From an uncultured Saprospiraceae bacterium (GTDB lineage Bacteria; Bacteroidota; Bacteroidia; Chitinophagales; Saprospiraceae), in contig CALLPN010000002.1 in assembly GCA_938015435.1 (NCBI GenBank), positions 62,001 through 126,000 on the forward strand: a stretch of DNA of 64,000 bases, written 5' to 3'. Every line of letters begins with the position of its first letter. Position 1 is the stretch's first letter. Below the pieces are notes generated by a model. That model was not told the DNA's origin, ran no database searches, and saw only the letters and a list, made by a program, of their open reading frames with translations. A program made the translations under genes and the position numbers. Positions 36,251 through 47,609 of this stretch are shown here, in pieces.

Positions 36251-37924
36251 TTAAAAACCCACATCTCCACTCCTAATTAAAGTCCCTTTTTCATCATAAT
36301 ACTCTCTTTTAATAGTAAAGTATTGTTCACAAGGGTCAGCTATATTTTTTCTCTCTTCTACCTCTTGCATAGTAGGATAATAGCTTATTGATTCTATAGA
36401 ACTATCTTTCCGATAGCGAATATGCTTTCCAACATTTCTCCCCATATTCATTTCTCCTTCATACAGCTTTTGGTCTGTTCCATAAAACATTTGAATATTA
36501 TAGCCATGTGAAAAGCCATTGACTTTTGGTGCGTTAGTAGATGTAGTATAAACAGTCGTTTCACGGCCATTCTTATAGATTGACTCTTGAATTATGTTTC
36601 CTTCTTTATCATACTCTATGTAAGTCCCATTTTTAGAACCATTTTTATATTCACAATGCTTCCTTACTACACCTTGAGAATCTATTTCTTGTTCTAATCC
36701 ATGCCTCTTGTCATTACGATAAGGAGTGTGTAATCTGCTACCATTATTATAATAATTTACCGACCACTCCAATTCAGAATCGACATTATAATAAAATTCA
36801 ATATCCAATTGGCTATTATAATATTGCCTCCAGATTCCTACTCTCCGTCCATTCTTAAGCACTCCCTTGTATCCTGGACCTGTTCTGCTTCCATATATAA
36901 TAGTTTTCGAAGCGTTAATTTCTGGATAATCATACTCTTCGACATCAACTATTTTACCTAATTTATTAAAGTATTTCCAGACACCTACTTTTTTACCACT
37001 AACATACTCTCCTTCAGCTAATGGGGAAAATGATGTGGAATCTCTCATATTAAAATAATACCCTTCTTTATAATGAATCCAATTCGACTTTCCCCTCTCA
37101 AAGTCTATATACTTTGTGGTATAAGTCTTCACTGTATCACCAGATTCATTCAACGAAGTATACTCAACTAACTTTGTTGTACTTTCAGGATACGTATATA
37201 CCATAAAGCTTCTTTGACTATATATTTCGTATTGAAGCAATCCATCTTTTGTACAACTTTCATAATCCAATATCTTAGTATATTCATCTAATAAGTACTT
37301 GTAGGTCTTTCCCTCTATCTTGCCCAATTTATAATCCATTTCAGCAAAGGTTCTAAGCCTATCCATTTCCCAATTATACCGAAAGTGAGTCCAAGTTCCA
37401 TGAGCTAAACCATCCTTAAATCTTGCTTCTGCATAAACATTACCTTGCGTCGATAAATTGATATTTCCTGAAAACTTATTGCCAACTAATTCAAAATACT
37501 GATTGATAATGTCTATTGATCGCTTTCCTTTAATCGTATCTTTAAGGGCACATGCCTCAGTTCTATTTTCCAATCGTCTTGAAAGATTATAGCATCCTGT
37601 GGTATGATATTTTTGATTTGCTCCTATCTCACTTATAATTAGCCATCGCTCTCCAGCAATTACTATATCACGACCAGTCATTGAACCATCTCCAGTATAT
37701 ATTTCGACAGTATCTGAAGGAACACCACGGTAAACATCTCGTACTATAGCTTTGGTATATCCTAGATTAGATGAAAGTATTTCACAAGTAAAAATATGGT
37801 GCTTAAGTTCTTCATTTGCTAAAACTTCAGTCAGATAATAATTAGGACCACTGCATGTAGATGCTATACCAAAGAATGAGTAGCCGATAAATAATAAACT
37901 TACTACAAATTTCTTCATTTTCAC
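36251..37924 (-). CDS. Secreted MORN-repeat protein
   Basis: A 557-residue exported protein (signal peptide to about GIAST22). The N-terminal part (25-130) holds four Cys and strands that resemble an NTR-like domain. The remainder has MORN-type repeats: EARFKDGLAHGTWTHFRYN, EGEYVSGKKVGVWKYFNKLG, GVLKNGRRVGIWRQYYN, CEYKNGSKNGTYIEYDKEGN. MORN repeats often bind lipid or protein; some such proteins are annotated as antitoxin YwqK, but no toxin is nearby. MATE transporter lies just upstream (18-bp gap) and the two may share a transcript. Confidence 0.8.
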   Translation of the reverse strand: MKMKKFVVSLLFIGYSFFGIASTCSGPNYYLTEVLANEELKHHIFTCEILSSNLGYTKAIVRDVYRGVPSDTVEIYTGDGSMTGRDIVIAGERWLIISEIGANQKYHTTGCYNLSRRLENRTEACALKDTIKGKRSIDIINQYFELVGNKFSGNINLSTQGNVYAEARFKDGLAHGTWTHFRYNWEMDRLRTFAEMDYKLGKIEGKTYKYLLDEYTKILDYESCTKDGLLQYEIYSQRSFMVYTYPESTTKLVEYTSLNESGDTVKTYTTKYIDFERGKSNWIHYKEGYYFNMRDSTSFSPLAEGEYVSGKKVGVWKYFNKLGKIVDVEEYDYPEINASKTIIYGSRTGPGYKGVLKNGRRVGIWRQYYNSQLDIEFYYNVDSELEWSVNYYNNGSRLHTPYRNDKRHGLEQEIDSQGVVRKHCEYKNGSKNGTYIEYDKEGNIIQESIYKNGRETTVYTTSTNAPKVNGFSHGYNIQMFYGTDQKLYEGEMNMGRNVGKHIRYRKDSSIESISYYPTMQEVEERKNIADPCEQYFTIKREYYDEKGTLIRSGDVGF

Positions 37925-37942: not shown

Positions 37943-39235
37943 CTAAGTATCAACTTTCCTCCAATAGATTGTCAATAATACTCCTCTCACAATCAAAAAA
38001 CTAAACATAGCTAACCATAAACCTTGCAATGGATCTTCCATTTCTATAAAATGATACAAGCCCAAGAATACTATCACCGCGACTATCATACTATCTCGCA
38101 TCTGTCTACTGGCCAATAGGCCAATAAAGACACCATCCCATATATAACATGCAAATGCAATAATCGGAAAGACTACCATCCATATTTTGTATCGAAGAGC
38201 AAAATCGATTACATCTTGATCACTAGAGAATAGATGAAGTAATACATCGTAATACATAAAATAAAATAAGGAATATGCAATCGCTAATATCAAACCCCAT
38301 AGAAAAGATAGCTTGACTGATCTACTTAAACTCAAATTGTCATTGGCGCCTTTGTACTTCCCTACCATACTCTCTGCGGCATAAGCAAATCCATCTATAC
38401 CGTAACTCATCCAATTGACAAACTGAAGTAATATAGCATTAGCCGCCAATGCCAATGCACCAGCTATAGACGACTCTCTATAGAAATATGCAAACACGAA
38501 AGTGAGGCAAACTGTACGTATAAATAGATTACTATTTACTTTGAAAAAATCAACCAACTCACTGAATTTCGAAGCCGCTTTGATTAATTCTAAATGAAGA
38601 TATTGGCGATAATTATAAGCTACAGCTGCAAAGCAAAGTAATACGCCAGTATACTGAGCGATGACAGTCCCTAGCGCTACACCTTTGATATCCATTCCGT
38701 ATTGATGGACTAACAAATAGCTAACTATAATATTGACAATATTGATTATAATAGTAATCATCATTGGATATATAGCATTCTGTAATCCAAAAAACCAACC
38801 CATCATTACGTACATCAACATAGTAGCGGGTGCCGCCCACATACGCATTGTGAAATACTCAACGATCAAAGGTGCATGAGTATCCTGAACTGAAAAAAAC
38901 CATGATGCTGCTTGTAACAACCAACCCTGTGTTAGAAAAATTGTAATAGCCAGCAACAGCGCTAAAAGCATACCTCTCACTAAAGTCACTCCCACCTTAT
39001 AATCATCTTGTGCACCATATGCCTGCGCGGTCAATCCAGTAGTTCCCATTCTGAGAAAACCAAAATTCCAATAGACAAAATTAAAGATCATACCCCCTAA
39101 GCCTATTGCACCTAAATGCAATGCTGAGAGCTGACCCATCAAAATAGTATCTACTGTCGATAACAGTGGGATAGAGATATTACTAACGATATTGGGTATC
39201 GCTAGTTTGAGTATTTCTTTGTGCGAAGCTGACAT
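37943..39235 (-). CDS. MATE family efflux transporter
   Basis: A 430-residue inner-membrane protein with twelve hydrophobic helices in two bundles. The start ILKLAIPNIVSNISIPLLSTVDTILMGQL and later WGLILAIAYSLF and VFPIIAFACYIWDGVFIGL are typical of the DinF-like MATE branch. It exports cationic drugs or metabolites using a Na+ or H+ gradient; the substrate is unknown. The first 27 codons and start region have two decayed copies further right (40914-40992 and 42817-42916). Confidence 0.88.
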   Translation of the reverse strand: MSASHKEILKLAIPNIVSNISIPLLSTVDTILMGQLSALHLGAIGLGGMIFNFVYWNFGFLRMGTTGLTAQAYGAQDDYKVGVTLVRGMLLALLLAITIFLTQGWLLQAASWFFSVQDTHAPLIVEYFTMRMWAAPATMLMYVMMGWFFGLQNAIYPMMITIIINIVNIIVSYLLVHQYGMDIKGVALGTVIAQYTGVLLCFAAVAYNYRQYLHLELIKAASKFSELVDFFKVNSNLFIRTVCLTFVFAYFYRESSIAGALALAANAILLQFVNWMSYGIDGFAYAAESMVGKYKGANDNLSLSRSVKLSFLWGLILAIAYSLFYFMYYDVLLHLFSSDQDVIDFALRYKIWMVVFPIIAFACYIWDGVFIGLLASRQMRDSMIVAVIVFLGLYHFIEMEDPLQGLWLAMFSFLIVRGVLLTIYWRKVDT

Positions 39236-39294
39236 GGCTCAAAGGTAGCCATTTGTAACTTGAAGCAAGTTTAGAATCCACTGATAAAAAAGCC

Positions 39295-40503
39295 TTAAAG
39301 TTTGACATGAATAATATACACAAATCGATTGTATTCATTAGCGATAACACTCCCCTCTACTTCCACAGTGTTGTAGTCCTCTATATCAATATTATCTATT
39401 GATGCTTCTTTCATTAGAGGTAGAAGGTTGTTACTCTTTATTGCATAGTTAACGAGATCTGTAGTACTATCTCGATAACCACTACTAACTACACCAATTA
39501 CATTTCCATAATTATCAAACAAAGGTCCACCGCTATTTCCACCTGTTATTGGAGCACTAATTTGATACATAGTATTATCATCACCAAAACCACTAGTGGC
39601 ATTAATAATCCCTTCTGTAATCTTAGCCGTGCTACCCAAAATACTTTGCTTTGGGTAACCTACAACAAATATATCTTTGCCACTAATTGCTTCTTTCATT
39701 TTTATACGATATGGAATATTACCCAAGTTCTTATTCACTTTCAATATTGCCAAATCACTTTCTTTATCAAAGGCTATAACTTTTGCCGTTAGCTTCTCAT
39801 CCATATTTCCATTTACACCCAAAACTTTTATACCTTTCTCATTTTCTATCACATGATAATTTGTCACGATATACCCTTCTTCTGATATTGCAAAACCTGT
39901 ACCTTGTGAACTATCCGCTTTCTTAGGTTTGGCTACTGAAATATAGCTACTCCCTTCTTCGTAATTTGACATAGACCACCCTTCTTCTTTAGAGAAAAAT
40001 TCATTTAGTCCTATGCTCAATTTAGCGTACACACCTTTTCTATTTAACCTTGGATTATCAGAATCAGGATTACCACTATAACCCAATTCAATATTTGCTA
40101 ATGCCGTATTAAATTTGACATAGGCTTCGTAACCAAAAGCTCCGTTGACTTTATCATTATCTAATCTGTCAAATAAATTGTACGTACCATTTACATTTAA
40201 TGTAGTTGTAGCGAATTTCATATGATGAAGTGGTATTCCAAGTCCCATCTTTCCCGTCACGTACAAATTCCTTATTGTCTTTAAAGAATCTCCTAAGGTT
40301 GAGGAAATATCTACACTAGAGTTAAATATTCTATATCTATAACCATTGCTTATGTGTAGAATATTTTCATCGTTCCCCGCATTTTTACTAATTCCAACAT
40401 TCAATCCTCTACTTCCCATATTACTATATTCTGATTTAAGAATACTCTGAGAAAATATTAATGACGAACATAACATTGAAACTAAAAATAATACACACTT
40501 CAT
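39295..40503 (-). CDS. Exported trypsin-like (HtrA-type) serine protease without PDZ domain
   Basis: A 402-residue protein with a signal peptide (to about FSQS20). Residues 21-180 are strand-rich and unlike any common domain, perhaps half a beta-barrel or a new sensor domain. A serine protease domain follows with complete triad: His217 (VTNYHVIE), Asp250 (ESDLAIL), Ser324 (GGNSGGPLFD). No PDZ domain follows; the last 70 residues are short and end in strands. This is gene one of three unrelated exported-protein genes lying between the MATE and ddl genes. Confidence 0.82.
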   Translation of the reverse strand: MKCVLFLVSMLCSSLIFSQSILKSEYSNMGSRGLNVGISKNAGNDENILHISNGYRYRIFNSSVDISSTLGDSLKTIRNLYVTGKMGLGIPLHHMKFATTTLNVNGTYNLFDRLDNDKVNGAFGYEAYVKFNTALANIELGYSGNPDSDNPRLNRKGVYAKLSIGLNEFFSKEEGWSMSNYEEGSSYISVAKPKKADSSQGTGFAISEEGYIVTNYHVIENEKGIKVLGVNGNMDEKLTAKVIAFDKESDLAILKVNKNLGNIPYRIKMKEAISGKDIFVVGYPKQSILGSTAKITEGIINATSGFGDDNTMYQISAPITGGNSGGPLFDNYGNVIGVVSSGYRDSTTDLVNYAIKSNNLLPLMKEASIDNIDIEDYNTVEVEGSVIANEYNRFVYIIHVKL

Positions 40504-40861: not shown

Positions 40862-41004
40862 TAGTATAAGTATAAAAAAGACGATAGAAAGATCTCATTT
40901 GCTGGTGGATATCCCACTGTAGAAAGCAGTGTAATCGAGATTACTTTAACGATAATGGTTATTGCAAATCTGAAAATTTATTTTACGAAGCCAATAATTT
41001 ATAA
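40862..41004. pseudogene. Decayed ddl'/MATE' joint, copy 1
   Basis: About 40872-40905 matches the start of the ddl gene in plus orientation (the 16-bp AGATCTCATTTGCTGG is identical to 44974-44989). From about 40914 to 40992 the DNA matches the 5' end of the MATE gene in its minus orientation (ACTGTaGAaAgCAGTG, TTACT..AACGATAaTGG, CGAAGC aligned with 39153-39230), at roughly 70% identity with small gaps. Start codons are lost. Junction sequence ATATCCC lies between the two parts. Confidence 0.6.
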
Positions 41005-41128: not shown

Positions 41129-42475
41129 TTATTCAGTTTTTATAACTTGTTCATACACTTGTACCGATACTGGCCGGCCTCTATTTTTACCTACTTTATA
41201 TTTTGGTAAATTCTCGCTAAAAACTTTAATGAAATAATTTTCAAATTTCTCATTTTCAACCTTGTCTCCTACAGGATAAGAGTAAACATTACCGCTCTTT
41301 GATCTAGGACCTTGATAATTTTGAGAGATTCTAAAATTTTCAACTTTACTATCCTTGGTTACTATGAATTCAAACTTAACTTTGAACAATCTCTTTGGAA
41401 ATTTATCAATTAATTTCTGCGTAAGCTTGTCAAAATATTTTTTATCAATAAGCTTAGGCATCTCTTCAACTACTTTATGAATTTCGTTCTCGTCTACCTT
41501 GTCTGTCTTTTTCATAGCAAGTCGAAACATTTCTTCCATTTCCCTACGAATAGAATCTTTCTGTGCAGGCGTTCTAGCTGCTATTTTTCTTTCCTTTTCC
41601 TGTGATTCTAACTTCTCTAATTTAAATAATTCCATAGCAACACTATCTAAATTTTCTGATTTAATTGAAAACAGATAAGTAACATCTTTCTTGGACCAAT
41701 AGCCTTTTTTATTTATAGTCCATCCCTCAATATCATCAAGGCATTTTGTCAAAATTTGATTCAACTTATAATCAATACTCAATAGGGTCCGTTTTAATGA
41801 AATATGATTTACAGAAGCAATTCCCTTATCGTCAAATTCAAATACAATCGAAACTACATTCAATGATTCTAGAACTTCCGAAGGAACACAATCAATAAAA
41901 TAATTCCGGATGTATCGTTCCGTTTCATCAGACTTCGCACTTTTTCCATTTAAAAATACAGAGTTATTACCATTTGACAGAAAAGCAGAATGTTCAACTA
42001 ATCTAACTTTAGATGTCTTATAGTTTTTTAACGGCTTAATATGCCTCAACATCTCATTTACAACTTCAGTGATTTTTTCGATATTTTCTGTATACTTCCA
42101 ATATCGAATATAGACCCGATCAGTTTTTTTAGGCTTATCAAAATAATTTCCGTCTATCCACACTCCCGTCTCGTCAATATTCTTTTGATCAGAAATTATT
42201 TTAATACCACAAACAATATTGTCTTTATCTGAGACCACCTGAATTGTATCGATATCGGCGAACTTTCCTCTATACTCATCAAGTACAACATAACCACTAA
42301 ATCTATTATTTCTCTGAGAAGTAAGAAGAAATTCCTCAGCAATAGTATCGAGTTGAATATTTACTATTTGGTAATTGAGGGAATCATAGTCTGTTGTTGG
42401 AAATGATAAATTGACTGATTGCGCATCACAGAAAAATGTTTGAACCAATAGATAAAATATAATTATTCCTTTCAT
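41129..42475 (-). CDS. Exported protein of unknown function
   Basis: A 448-residue protein when started at ATG 42475, which gives a good signal peptide (MKGIIIFYLLVQTFFCDAQS); an upstream ATG at 42523 would bury it behind 16 polar residues. The body is rich in Lys, Glu, Asp and Ile with alternating strands and helices. The segment YIRNYFIDCVPSEVLESLNVVSIVF and the end (LFKVKFEFIVTKDSKVENFRIS) resemble TonB-like C-terminal strands, but not clearly. Second of the three exported-protein genes in the MATE-ddl interval. Confidence 0.65.
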   Translation of the reverse strand: MKGIIIFYLLVQTFFCDAQSVNLSFPTTDYDSLNYQIVNIQLDTIAEEFLLTSQRNNRFSGYVVLDEYRGKFADIDTIQVVSDKDNIVCGIKIISDQKNIDETGVWIDGNYFDKPKKTDRVYIRYWKYTENIEKITEVVNEMLRHIKPLKNYKTSKVRLVEHSAFLSNGNNSVFLNGKSAKSDETERYIRNYFIDCVPSEVLESLNVVSIVFEFDDKGIASVNHISLKRTLLSIDYKLNQILTKCLDDIEGWTINKKGYWSKKDVTYLFSIKSENLDSVAMELFKLEKLESQEKERKIAARTPAQKDSIRREMEEMFRLAMKKTDKVDENEIHKVVEEMPKLIDKKYFDKLTQKLIDKFPKRLFKVKFEFIVTKDSKVENFRISQNYQGPRSKSGNVYSYPVGDKVENEKFENYFIKVFSENLPKYKVGKNRGRPVSVQVYEQVIKTE

Positions 42476-42677
42476 ATCATTTTTTTTTGCATCATTAATT
42501 ATCGTTGCATTATTACTCTTCAAATATAATAATGTTTACCCTTATCTTATGGAAGATCCGAATTAAATCACGAATACGTAATATTACGTATCTTCCTCTT
42601 AATCATGGGACCATTTTAAACATTCCTCTTATTGTACTTTTAATTTCAGTCAAGCAACTAACCATGAAGCACATATT

Positions 42678-42930
42678 ATACAATAATTCATTCGAACTGA
42701 TCAATTATTATAAGTAAAGAGCTAATTACCGCTAGATTTAAAGAAAATCAAAATAGAGTGTTTTTTGGTAGAGCGTCGCAGAAGAAAGAAGGATCTCATT
42801 TATCGAAATCCCTTTTCAATGTCGATAACAGAAGGATGAAGATATTACTAACAATATTGGGGATCGCCAGATTGAATATTTCATTATGAGAAGTTGACAT
42901 ATTACAAAGGTTGCTATTATGATGTTATGC
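42678..42930. pseudogene. Decayed ddl'/MATE' joint, copy 2
   Basis: 42678-42802 matches the ddl upstream region and first codons (44858-44983): GTAAAGAGCT, AATTAC, TTTTTTGG and GATCTCATTT are kept while the ATG is changed to TTT. From 42817 to 42916 it matches the 5' end of MATE in minus orientation (compare 39153-39255): TGTCGATAACAG, AGATATTACTAAC, ATATTGGG, TGACAT with the start codon CAT at 42898-42900 aligned to 39233-39235. Identity is roughly 75-80%. Reading frames are broken, so neither is a gene. Confidence 0.85.
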
Positions 42931-42984: not shown

Positions 42985-44643
42985 TCAATACTTTACAAAT
43001 TTCGCTGAATACTCTTTTTCCTGAGCTTCTACAATAATAAAATACACCCCAGAAGAAAAATCATTAACATCAAGTTGGATATATTCTTCATTGATCAATT
43101 CAGTGATAGATTTTACCAAAATTCGACTTCCTAGATAATTGAAAACTGAGACATTGACTTCACCAGTATAGCTAATTGGAATATTAAGAACATTAGATAC
43201 AGGGTTAGGAAAAACTTTTAATTCACCTATCTCAAATGAAGAAGACCTTCTTATAACTTTAATTTTGGAGCGATCACTTACCGACAAATAACTCATATCA
43301 ATTTTCGCATCATCTATAAGATATACATGAAGTTGCAGTCCATCAACATAACTATTTAAAAACGCTCCTTCTATAAATTTAAGCTCCCCACCTTTTTCGA
43401 CATAACACTTGGGCTGACCTTTGTTTTTTCTTTGGTTAAATGTAAAATTACCTCCAATCAATAAACTTGAATTCTCTTCAACATTAATGGTTGCGTCATC
43501 ATAGAGTGCTAGCATACCAATAGAATTTTTTCCAACTTGAAGTTCATCTTGCTGAATGTGTATTGAGCTACCATACTCTATTCTAATACATGCTTCTCTC
43601 GATTTCAATTCTATTTCAGAATCATTCCTAAAGAATAAATCCACATTGTTGCCACTTACTAATTCAACTATCTGTACGCACATTCCGTTATTATCGAATA
43701 TAAAATTTACATTGTGTCTAATAGAATCATCACCCTCGACTAACTCTCCTCTCAATTCTACGTAATCCTGAAGAAACACACTCATATAATCTTCAGAAAA
43801 CAAATTTATAGTTTGCTGAACATCTTGTTTTTCTTCTAGGATTACTTCTATATAATCTATATTATCACTGGATGGACAAGCTCCATTGTTGTGTTGAAGA
43901 ATCACTATTTCGTTCTGAAAAAGTTCTCCTAATTGTGCGCTGTAAGTATCGTCATCCACTCTATACAATTCTGAAACTGATATTTCATTTTCTATAGATG
44001 CACCCCACCAGTCTTCCCATACACCGAAAGAAGGCAAATACAATTTATTTTGAGTTCCTGGATCATCATCAATCACTATTTTTATCATTACATCTACCAA
44101 ATATTGCTCTTCGATATTTTGAGATACGAAGCAAGATTCGATTCCTTCACATTCTGGATAATAATATTCTCTCACTTTAGATTGATCATTCCCGTCTTCA
44201 TCTTTTGAATATTTCACTTTTAAACTCAACAACGTACAATCATCATTTGAACAATCATTGCCATCAAGTAAATCATGATTAGAGAATGGCATTCGCGAAA
44301 TTAGATAATGCAACTGGTTGGCAAGAATAGGATATTGCAAAGAATCCTGAAGTCTCAGTTTGACAAAAATCGGCTTAGTTATGTCTATATTTTCTAGACT
44401 AACATATTCATCCGGTCCTTCTTGTTCAACGACAAAACATTGAGTACTATCTATAGGACTATTAATTCCACCATCAAGAGTCTGAAAGATATTAAAGTCT
44501 CGTAATTGAGTAATGACTTGAGTAGAAGTAGGATCGAAATCACATATTCTATCTTCCATCTGATATGTTGAAGGCAACTGCCCCAGTAGCAATGAATGAA
44601 AACTAAAGAATAGTACTGCGTATATAAAAGATGATCTTTTCAT
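42985..44643 (-). CDS. Secreted protein with T9SS type A sorting domain
   Basis: A 552-residue exported protein (signal peptide to about LLGQL22). The body (30-470) holds Asp/Cys-rich strands of unknown fold, such as YYYPECEGIESCFVSQNIEE and EARIRIEYGS-like beta strands; a middle stretch has the sequence of a short repeated beta-prism or beta-helix (INVEENSSLLIGGNFTFNQRK). The last 75 residues (FEIGELKVFPNPVSNVLNIP to AKFVKY) are a type A T9SS sorting domain. Third of the exported-protein genes in the MATE-ddl interval. Role unknown. Confidence 0.8.
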   Translation of the reverse strand: MKRSSFIYAVLFFSFHSLLLGQLPSTYQMEDRICDFDPTSTQVITQLRDFNIFQTLDGGINSPIDSTQCFVVEQEGPDEYVSLENIDITKPIFVKLRLQDSLQYPILANQLHYLISRMPFSNHDLLDGNDCSNDDCTLLSLKVKYSKDEDGNDQSKVREYYYPECEGIESCFVSQNIEEQYLVDVMIKIVIDDDPGTQNKLYLPSFGVWEDWWGASIENEISVSELYRVDDDTYSAQLGELFQNEIVILQHNNGACPSSDNIDYIEVILEEKQDVQQTINLFSEDYMSVFLQDYVELRGELVEGDDSIRHNVNFIFDNNGMCVQIVELVSGNNVDLFFRNDSEIELKSREACIRIEYGSSIHIQQDELQVGKNSIGMLALYDDATINVEENSSLLIGGNFTFNQRKNKGQPKCYVEKGGELKFIEGAFLNSYVDGLQLHVYLIDDAKIDMSYLSVSDRSKIKVIRRSSSFEIGELKVFPNPVSNVLNIPISYTGEVNVSVFNYLGSRILVKSITELINEEYIQLDVNDFSSGVYFIIVEAQEKEYSAKFVKY

Positions 44644-44921
44644 GGTTCTAATTATTTTAATCCTTCTAAAGCTACGAATATCTACATGAGGGTTTTTAAT
44701 TTACTGTTAGAAAAGTCTCATTCGACACAACAGTATTTGGCAGTTTCTACTTGGAAACAAATAATCGCTAATCTCCAACGAATACTAATCAATTAATTAG
44801 TTATAAATAGCTTCCTATATATTTACTACAAATAGGTTAATCTTAAAGGGGGATAGAAACATAACAATTCACCATAATTGATTAATTTTGCTAATACGTA
44901 AAGAGCTGATTACTAGTAGAC

Positions 44922-47609
44922 ATGAAGAAGATCAAAGTAGGAATATTTTTTGGAGGACCATCGAGGGAGAGAGAGATCTCATTTGCTGGAGGTCGTACTG
45001 TATATGACAATCTCAATAAAGACATATTTGAGGCGGTGCCCATATTTGTAGATAGCCACCAAACACTTATAGAACTCAATTGGGAATATATCTACAAAGG
45101 TACTATCAGAGATTTCTATCCGCCTGCGGCATATCAGTCCGCTGGAGATAGTGATTATCAGATATATGTAGAATCTCTAGGGCCGATCGATAGCTATGAT
45201 TATGATTCTTTAGTTAGTCAAGTAGGTAAGCGAATCTCTTGGGATGAGGTACAATCTAAGATAGATATCGCATTCCTTGCTCTCCATGGGAGCTTTGGAG
45301 AAGACGGACAGATACAATCTATCTGCGATGCTAGAGGGATAGCATATACGGGGTCTGGTGTGTTGCCTTGTGCAATAGGTATGGATAAGTACACTCAAAA
45401 AAATCTAATGGAAGCGGCAGGCTTTCATTGTCCAGAGATACTAGCGATCACTCGTGAAGAGTGGATTAATAGCACAGAAGCTGAAATCGATGCTCTCTTT
45501 ACTCGATCCAAAGAAGCAATCGGATCGACTATGGTTATTCGTCCGAGCAATCAAGGAAGTAGTATCGGAGTAAGTATACTCAAAGCGGTCGACCTCAAGA
45601 CTTATAGAGATTCTATAGATGCTGCGTTTTTTGTAGGGCACCTTGACGCTCAAAATTGGAAGGCATATAATGATGAAGAAAAACATAATTGGGCGGTAGA
45701 AGTATCAGACATCCGTGGAGGGATAGGTTTCCCTGTACAGATAGCTGAGAAAACCATCTATCATCCTCAAGCATTGGTTCAATACGTTGATAGCCATCTG
45801 AAGTCTCACGACTCGTGCACTATCGAAGGTCATATGACTGAGCAAAGGGTTATCGTAGAGTCATTTATCGATGGAAGAGAATTTTCGTGTATCGTACTGC
45901 GTAATGAAGATCAAAATGCCGTAGCATTACCACCGACTGAGATCGTAAAATCTGGTGAAGTATATGATTATAGATCAAAGTACCTTCCTGGATTATCTCG
46001 AAAAATCACACCAATAGCCGTATCTGATGATTACCTTAAAGCGATCAGATCAGAATGTGAAAAACTCTATGATTATCTAGGTTTCCATACTTACGCGAGG
46101 ATTGATGGATTTATCAATGCAGAAGGAAAGATATTTTTGAATGATCCCAATACGACTTCAGGGATGCTACCCTCTTCATTCTTTTTTCATCAGGCGGCAG
46201 AGATTGGGTTGAATCCTAGTCAGTTTTTAAGTTTTATCATTAGATGTTCTGTCCAAGAGCGTCTCAAGGACCAACTGCATCTCAGAGGACATAAGCAATT
46301 ACTCCAGCGTATCGACGTTTCGCTAGAGAAGCTGCAGAAGGAAGAAAGCCAAAAGAAAAAAGTAGCGGTCATCATGGGTGGATACTCATTCGAGAGACAT
46401 ATATCCATGGAAAGTGGTCGTAACATCTATGAAAAGCTAGCAAGCTCAGATGGATATGAACCGATCCCTATGTTTTTAATGAAAGACGGAGATAGCCATA
46501 AGTTATATAAGATACCCGTAAAAATGCTACTCAAGGATAATGCTGATGATGTAAGAGATAAGATCTTAGGATATTCTGTACATCCTGTGATACAACAGAT
46601 CCAAGGAGAGTGCAAAGCCATCATGGATAGATACTTAGATGCGAGTTATATATCTGAGCCCTCAGAAATCAGCTATCCGCAATTGGCGGAGGAAGTAGAT
46701 GTAGCATTTATAGCGCTACATGGAAGGCCTGGAGAAGATGGTACTGTACAAGCGAAACTGAGAGCCCATGGCATTGTTCATAATGGATCGCTAGCAGAAT
46801 CAGCAGCAAAAACAATAGATAAATACGAAACGCTACAAATACTCAAGAGTAATGGATTTACAGTAGCCAATCAATTTGTGATCTCTCAAGAAAGCTATGA
46901 GAGAGATGCAGATCAAGCTATATCTAATATGACTGAGCTGATCGGTGGATTCCCAATCATAGCTAAGCCTATGGATGATGGATGTAGTTCAGCAGTCCGT
47001 AAGATCAAGTCTGCGGACGAACTCAAAGTATATCTTAAAGGATTATTTCGTGCTGATTGGGAGATGTCGCCTGAGTTGAGATCCGAACTAAATCTCAACT
47101 ATAATGAGGAATTCCCTATGAAGCCAGAAGTGCTTTGCGAACAACTCATCGATAGAGGTGACGCAGACCATTTCCTTGAGATCACTGGGGGTATGTTGAC
47201 TCATATGGAAGGTGACCAAGTAAGATTTGAAATATTCGAACCCTCAGAAGCATTAGCCACAGGTGAGGTATTATCTCTAGAAGAAAAATTCTTAGCTGGA
47301 GAGGGACAGAATATTACACCGGCTAGATTTAGCGAAGACCCAGAGAAATTTAGAGCAATATCTGACCAAGTGAGGGCTGACCTACAACGAGCCGCAGAGC
47401 TACTAGATGTCCGTGGATACTCTAGGATAGACGCGTTTGTAAAGATAAAAGGAGACGACGTAGAAACAATTGTCATCGAAATCAATTCGTTACCTGGTAT
47501 GACGCCTGCTACTTGCATTTTTCATCAGTGTGCCATTAATGGATATAAGCCTTATGAATTTATTGATAAAATATTGCAATTTGCAGTCCAGCGTGACTTT
47601 CCTTTGTAA
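44922..47609 (+). CDS. ddl: Double-length D-alanine-D-alanine ligase (two fused ligase domains)
   Basis: An 895-residue cytoplasmic protein made of two ATP-grasp ligase modules (about 1-450 and 479-895) joined by a helical linker; ordinary Ddl has 300-370 residues. Module 1 has GGPSREREIS, ALHGSFGEDG, YDYRSKY and NDPNTTSGM, but Arg207 (VIRPSNQGSS) replaces the usual ATP-binding Lys and Asp408 the usual Glu. Module 2 has GGYSFERHIS, ALHGRPGEDG, the Lys (AKP) and canonical EINSLPGMT, but Phe790 (EEKF) replaces the omega-loop Tyr. The product joins two D-Ala for peptidoglycan; one module may differ in substrate. PASTA gene follows. Confidence 0.88.
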   Translation: MKKIKVGIFFGGPSREREISFAGGRTVYDNLNKDIFEAVPIFVDSHQTLIELNWEYIYKGTIRDFYPPAAYQSAGDSDYQIYVESLGPIDSYDYDSLVSQVGKRISWDEVQSKIDIAFLALHGSFGEDGQIQSICDARGIAYTGSGVLPCAIGMDKYTQKNLMEAAGFHCPEILAITREEWINSTEAEIDALFTRSKEAIGSTMVIRPSNQGSSIGVSILKAVDLKTYRDSIDAAFFVGHLDAQNWKAYNDEEKHNWAVEVSDIRGGIGFPVQIAEKTIYHPQALVQYVDSHLKSHDSCTIEGHMTEQRVIVESFIDGREFSCIVLRNEDQNAVALPPTEIVKSGEVYDYRSKYLPGLSRKITPIAVSDDYLKAIRSECEKLYDYLGFHTYARIDGFINAEGKIFLNDPNTTSGMLPSSFFFHQAAEIGLNPSQFLSFIIRCSVQERLKDQLHLRGHKQLLQRIDVSLEKLQKEESQKKKVAVIMGGYSFERHISMESGRNIYEKLASSDGYEPIPMFLMKDGDSHKLYKIPVKMLLKDNADDVRDKILGYSVHPVIQQIQGECKAIMDRYLDASYISEPSEISYPQLAEEVDVAFIALHGRPGEDGTVQAKLRAHGIVHNGSLAESAAKTIDKYETLQILKSNGFTVANQFVISQESYERDADQAISNMTELIGGFPIIAKPMDDGCSSAVRKIKSADELKVYLKGLFRADWEMSPELRSELNLNYNEEFPMKPEVLCEQLIDRGDADHFLEITGGMLTHMEGDQVRFEIFEPSEALATGEVLSLEEKFLAGEGQNITPARFSEDPEKFRAISDQVRADLQRAAELLDVRGYSRIDAFVKIKGDDVETIVIEINSLPGMTPATCIFHQCAINGYKPYEFIDKILQFAVQRDFPL

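Follow-up and report, generated by a model that had tools for sequence, protein, structure and literature searches.

The locus described here resembles the minimal mobile element of Neisseria, in which, by the published definition (PMC3082526), conserved genes flank a site, differing whole-gene cassettes occupy it from strain to strain, and homologous recombination takes place in the flanks. A tandem (head-to-tail) duplication, in turn, leaves a joint at which the end of one unit runs into the start of the next in the original orientation. Integron gene-cassette arrays carry one gene per unit, all in the same orientation, with a repeated sequence between units. When a single gene enters between two conserved genes without a mobile element, the event is usually traceless and hard to study.

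The DNA analysed is a stretch of 64,000 nucleotides (the window) from an uncultured Saprospiraceae bacterium, located inside a 406-kb contig of a 4.9-Mb genome (G000; 49 contigs, 89% complete). In the gap between a MATE efflux-family gene and ddl, three accessory genes (X1 to X3) are separated by two joints, J1 and J2, each of which fuses a copy of the beginning of ddl (ddl') to a copy of the beginning of the MATE gene (MATE'). On the plus strand, the order is MATE, X1, ddl'/MATE' (J1), X2, ddl'/MATE' (J2), X3, ddl, with the following features:

37943..39235, minus strand: MATE efflux-family gene, parent of MATE' (Pfam MatE, 2.5e-35; orthologues at 87-92% in G001-G003)
39148..39253, minus strand: MATE segment copied into the joints, the 5' end plus 18 bp upstream
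39295..40503, minus strand: X1, accessory gene of 402 aa with a trypsin-like protease domain (Trypsin_2, 9.3e-28)
40883..40908, plus strand: ddl' half of J1, 26 nt, 23 of them identical to 44967-44992
40910..40992, minus strand: MATE' half of J1, identical to its parent in 62 of 85 aligned columns, with a disrupted reading frame
41129..42478, minus strand: X2, accessory gene of 449 aa, without a convincing family match
about 42682..42801, plus strand: ddl' half of J2, covering sequence upstream of ddl and its first ~21 codons, identical in 90 of 124 aligned columns
42802..42918, minus strand: MATE' half of J2, 80 identities in 99 columns
42985..44643, minus strand: X3, accessory gene of 552 aa with a T9SS C-terminal sorting domain (Por_Secre_tail, 1.5e-12)
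44863..44992, plus strand: ddl segment copied into the joints, the upstream region and first ~24 codons
44922..47609, plus strand: ddl, a double-length D-alanine--D-alanine ligase gene, parent of ddl' (Pfam Dala_Dala_lig N and C; NCBIfam)

Adjacency of the two conserved genes is the ancestral state. Specifically, in the sister genomes G001 and G002 the two lie side by side in divergent orientation, with about 224 and about 221 bp between them, respectively. In G003, a single unrelated gene of 192 aa (X4), which is without any family match, lies between the two on the same strand as X1-X3, and its stop overlaps the MATE start. These genomes form a fossil series at one intergenic site: empty (G001, G002), single (G003) and triple with scars (window). 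A hand count from tables finds a divergent MATE-ddl pair on one contig in 40 of 199 sampled family genomes, a number that takes in the window's own genome, G001 and G002. The two genes are less than about 420 bp apart in 34 of these pairs and further apart in six (G000, G016, G031, G060, G121, G157). Divergence is thus the usual arrangement of the pair in the family, which indicates that the pair is old and that its gap has received DNA on several occasions.

The accessory genes share no similarity with one another (X1-X4), and their distribution is patchy. X1 occurs in 6 of 199 family genomes, its own included (E<=1e-25), with no match at that threshold in G001 or G002; X2 is confined to its own genome among the 199 sampled; and X3 occurs in 18 of 199, its own included (E<=1e-12), with relatives in other genera at <=31% identity and none at that threshold in G001/G002. 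G003 lies outside the sample rows listed for these counts. Nothing longer than words of 7-9 nt was found by way of shared termini or target duplications flanking X1-X3, the spacers outside the joint relics bear no similarity to one another, and Pfam identifies no transposase or integrase gene between MATE and ddl.

Two further observations concern the conserved flanks. The gene that adjoins the MATE 3' end (36251-37924) has weak MORN-repeat matches; it has a counterpart of 56% identity in G003, was not found in the stretches examined of G001 and G002, and constitutes a second variable slot beside MATE. In ddl, the upstream region and first ~25 codons (44862-45010) are conserved at 97-99 of 102 nt among four congeneric genomes, in contrast to about 65-90% identity per 75 nt for most of the gene and about 77-81% for the MATE 5' end. 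This conservation points to a possible RNA-level or regulatory constraint; the segment has no Rfam match.

Like a minimal mobile element, the site is flanked by two conserved genes (in G001, G002 and G003 as well as in the wider set of 40 family genomes), holds different whole genes in different genomes, and has no integrase or transposase found with it. This likeness stems from gene content compared between species rather than strains (nothing in G001/G002, X4 in G003, X1-X3 in the window). Unlike a minimal mobile element, the window carries three unrelated genes in tandem, separated by relics of both flanks. These relics have the form of tandem-duplication joints: in both J1 and J2, ddl' is followed by MATE' in plus-strand order and in the original orientation, so that the end of a unit runs into the start of a unit. 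An intact tandem repeat is absent, however, since only the unit ends are homologous, which marks the repeat as decayed or overwritten; moreover, each unit in the window carries a different gene, so that gene addition or exchange would have accompanied or followed the duplication. The locus also resembles an integron array in having one gene per unit, the same orientation throughout and a repeat between units, but here the repeat derives from the flanking host genes. No integron integrase exceeds the TIGR02249 cut-off in the 89%-complete genome (best 110.8 versus 265 bits). The best match below the cut-off, in two pieces of 110.8 and 80.3 bits, is a tyrosine recombinase at G000:C30:2888-3694, and weaker tyrosine recombinase matches lie on contigs other than C2.

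The central result is that J1 is a genuine, decayed ddl'/MATE' joint. The initial annotation had described positions 40862-41004 as a second, older copy of the joint at 42.7 kb, and on the main point this reading stands, its coordinates being right. AGATCTCATTTGCTGG, which is identical to the ddl start, is present in J1, and the ungapped match of 40883-40908 to 44967-44992 comprises 23 of 26 positions; elsewhere in the 64 kb, on either strand, only ddl itself reaches at least 19/26 with this 26-mer. The MATE-like part extends from 40910 to about 40992 (~83 nt) and aligns with 39148-39229 of the window (plus-strand numbering), interrupted by small indels and carrying a stop. For the more upstream ddl sequence that J2 retains, J1 has no recognisable counterpart, 1432 of 2000 shuffles aligning equally well.

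Alignment to both parents and to J2 against shuffled sequence, which the initial annotation had proposed as a check, places J1 beyond all or nearly all of its controls. Local alignment of the 143-nt J1 yields a score of 44 against the ddl 5' end (44922-45010) and 67 against the MATE 5' end (39135-39235), scores that none of 5,000 dinucleotide shuffles of J1 attains (maxima 36 and 39.5, respectively). When 311-nt flanked regions are used, shuffles do as well in 0 of 1000 cases for MATE, 2 of 1000 for ddl and 0 of 1000 for the alignment of J1 to J2. A null built from real sequence, namely 16,334 tiles of 300 bp covering 1.23 Mb of the same genome on both strands, leads to the same placement: the J1 tile has a summed score of 107, only the tiles of the parents and of J2 rank above it, and unrelated tiles reach 70 at most.

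J2 is the clearer of the two joints. Its ddl' has lost the start codon (ATG), and its MATE' (42793-42900), which follows X3 on the minus strand, keeps its ATG, with 34 codons still open (MSTSHNEIFNLAIPNIVSN...). With eight non-synonymous and five synonymous codon changes, we do not claim this frame as a kept small protein. J2 MATE' is nearest to the window's MATE (80/99 columns, compared with 66/94 for G001 and 94/137 for G003, the latter a longer and looser alignment), and the 18 bp upstream of it are likewise closest to the window's own gene. A terminator-like hairpin is found at J2; the number of terminators found (1, versus a shuffle mean of 1.8) is within the range of shuffles.

The two joints agree in order and orientation, and their join points, described earlier as the same, are equal within about 10 bp. 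In chimeric alignments, the join of J1 falls at ddl 44992 and MATE 39148 (ranges 44988-44998 and 39144-39153) and that of J2 at ddl 44984 and MATE 39138 (ranges 44982-44994 and 39137-39148). The best separate joins thus differ by about 8-10 bp, the ranges overlap, and the score drops by 9.5 from 233.5 when both are made to share one join. The ATCCC motif noted at both junctions is indeed shared, but it is mostly inherited from MATE, G001 and G003 reading TATCCAC there. The description of J1 as older draws weak support from its lower identity, its indels and its truncated ddl', but the difference is not significant: columns that differ from MATE number 23/85 in J1 and 19/99 in J2 (Fisher p = 0.22). 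An additional Ser codon close to the start of MATE is present in the window gene, J2 and G001, is absent from G002 and G003, and is apparently absent from J1, which on the alignment may fit either an older origin of J1 or a later deletion. J1 MATE' resembles the window MATE (62/85) and the G003 MATE (69/99 columns) to about the same degree. Dating of the joints by codon position was set aside as the numbers are too small. On balance, we favour one original joint that would later have been copied.

Comparable structures are rare as far as was searched. A scan of 25% of the same genome (1,226,388 bases, 638 intergenic regions) for adjacent relics of gene ends returned only J1 and J2 with both halves above 34 bits, every other pair having at least one weaker half; within the scanned quarter, then, gene addition does not commonly leave joints of this kind, a verdict that holds only as far as such relics last. 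Two intergenic relics of neighbour-gene 3' ends were observed, at G000:C2:39599-39701 (69% over 103 nt) and G000:C5:85430-85495 (76% over 67 nt). Among 17 other MATE-ddl spacers, none has a ddl'/MATE' joint with both halves. The spacer before ddl in G032 (L155) repeats 24 nt of the sequence upstream of that genome's own ddl (0/200 shuffles), the G177 spacer a weak MATE match (2/200), and the G003 spacer scores at 6/200 shuffles, or 96/2000 in a repeat run. Across 91 loci of other genomes (1.0 Mb), four joints were called, all within a single repeat array that lies between MATE and ddl in G060; we reject this array as a ddl/MATE relic, as it is a tandem repeat of intergenic DNA. With its 17-nt and 25-nt tandem units (L151:3199-3830), it constitutes a case of the same gap duplicated internally in another genus. 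In the literature, as represented by titles and abstract openings in a set that leaves subscription papers mostly uncovered, minimal mobile elements are treated, but no flank-derived scars between unrelated genes are mentioned.

We consider it likely, with good confidence, that J1 is what decay has left of a tandem-duplication joint within a triplication of the MATE-ddl gap. In this account, the MATE-ddl intergenic region, together with the adjoining 5' portions of MATE (~88 bp) and ddl (~70 bp), would have been duplicated head to tail, running the ddl start into the MATE start and so creating a ddl'/MATE' joint. Two joints imply three copies of the intergenic unit, and the third could have arisen by unequal recombination between the repeats or by a second duplication at the same place. 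Each intergenic copy would now hold one unrelated accessory gene on the minus strand, upstream of a MATE 5' end. Because the copies hold unrelated genes, these would have entered after the copies were made or come with them; candidate routes of entry are separate insertion into a recurrent target or strain-to-strain cassette exchange via the MATE and ddl flanks. The ancestral adjacency, the two joints with their matching positions, the lack of homology among X1-X3 and the lone unrelated gene at this site in G003 are observed; the copying of one joint and the order of duplication and gene entry are what we infer. The joints themselves, with no evident function and visible decay, are probably functionless fossils. 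Counting against this account, the 17 other spacers contain no such joint, no one-joint intermediate was found, the ddl' of J1 spans only 26 nt, and the spacers outside the relics are dissimilar.

Several other explanations share part of this evidence. J1 and J2 could be two independent duplications with nearly equal break points, J1 being the first. Its weaker resemblance to the parents, the apparent lack of the Ser codon that J2, the window gene and G001 have, the 8-10 bp between the best separate break points on each side, and the fact that only one clear derived change shared by the MATE' halves was noticed (by eye, in the alignment) are all compatible with two events. Independent events are nevertheless improbable when both breaks agree to about 10 bp in genes of 1.3 and 2.7 kb, and the divergence of the two joints is not significantly different; this explanation is unlikely. 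A circle or donor piece consisting of an accessory gene and a ddl'/MATE' joint might instead have recombined with the homologous 5' end of the resident MATE or ddl gene, the joint thus acting as the homology handle of a cassette that needs no transposase. Such entry would account for the same joint bracketing each unrelated gene in the same direction, a single crossover of such a circle should by reasoning yield exactly this structure, and the near-equal similarity of J1 MATE' to the window gene and to G003 fits as well. Against it, searches turned up no circle or donor and no further genome that carries a cassette of this kind, and J2 MATE' with its 18 bp upstream is closest to the window's own gene, as local duplication predicts; we regard this route as unlikely. 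Quite doubtful, too, is the reading in which the gap is a self-reinforcing capture site, the first joint providing a homology handle to any later DNA that carried it, so that unrelated genes could be added serially without a recombinase, each leaving a further scar.

The remaining explanations dispute the nature of the joints altogether. That they are working integron-like recombination sites or kept regulatory elements, and the locus a cassette array, is suggested by the single gene per unit, the uniform orientation with one site between units, and small inverted repeats at both joints. It is very improbable, given that the ddl and MATE 5' ends account for the sequences, which have decayed differently, and that the genome has no integron integrase over the cut-off, the joints no Rfam match and terminators no excess over shuffles. 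Chance similarity in A+T-rich intergenic DNA would find some room in the ddl' half of J1, which taken alone is weak genome-wide (E 0.025, equal to an unrelated match), and in the BLAST score of J1 against MATE (40.1 bits), which the same query equals on a 24-nt match in a coding gene of G002 that we take to be a Tex homologue. Since this latter match is short, stops abruptly and belongs to a different genome, we ascribe it to coincidence. Set against the shuffle results for either half, the margin of 107 over 70 among the tiles, and the fact that the halves are adjacent, ordered and stranded as J2 predicts, chance is extremely improbable. We give just as little credence to an assembly artefact: the genome is a metagenome bin in 49 contigs at 89% completeness and the relatives' records are metagenome-assembled, but the copies lie inside a 406-kb contig, and misassembly joins near-identical sequence, whereas the MATE' relics are 19-27% off their parent.

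Taken together, the tandem scars add a feature to what otherwise resembles a minimal-mobile-element-like site. With no other joint of two strong halves in a quarter of the genome, the finding is in other respects a local curiosity. Here, two scars part three unrelated accessory genes, and the empty and single-gene states are preserved in sister species. With the scars and the sister states together, it becomes possible to test in what order and by what route genes were added.
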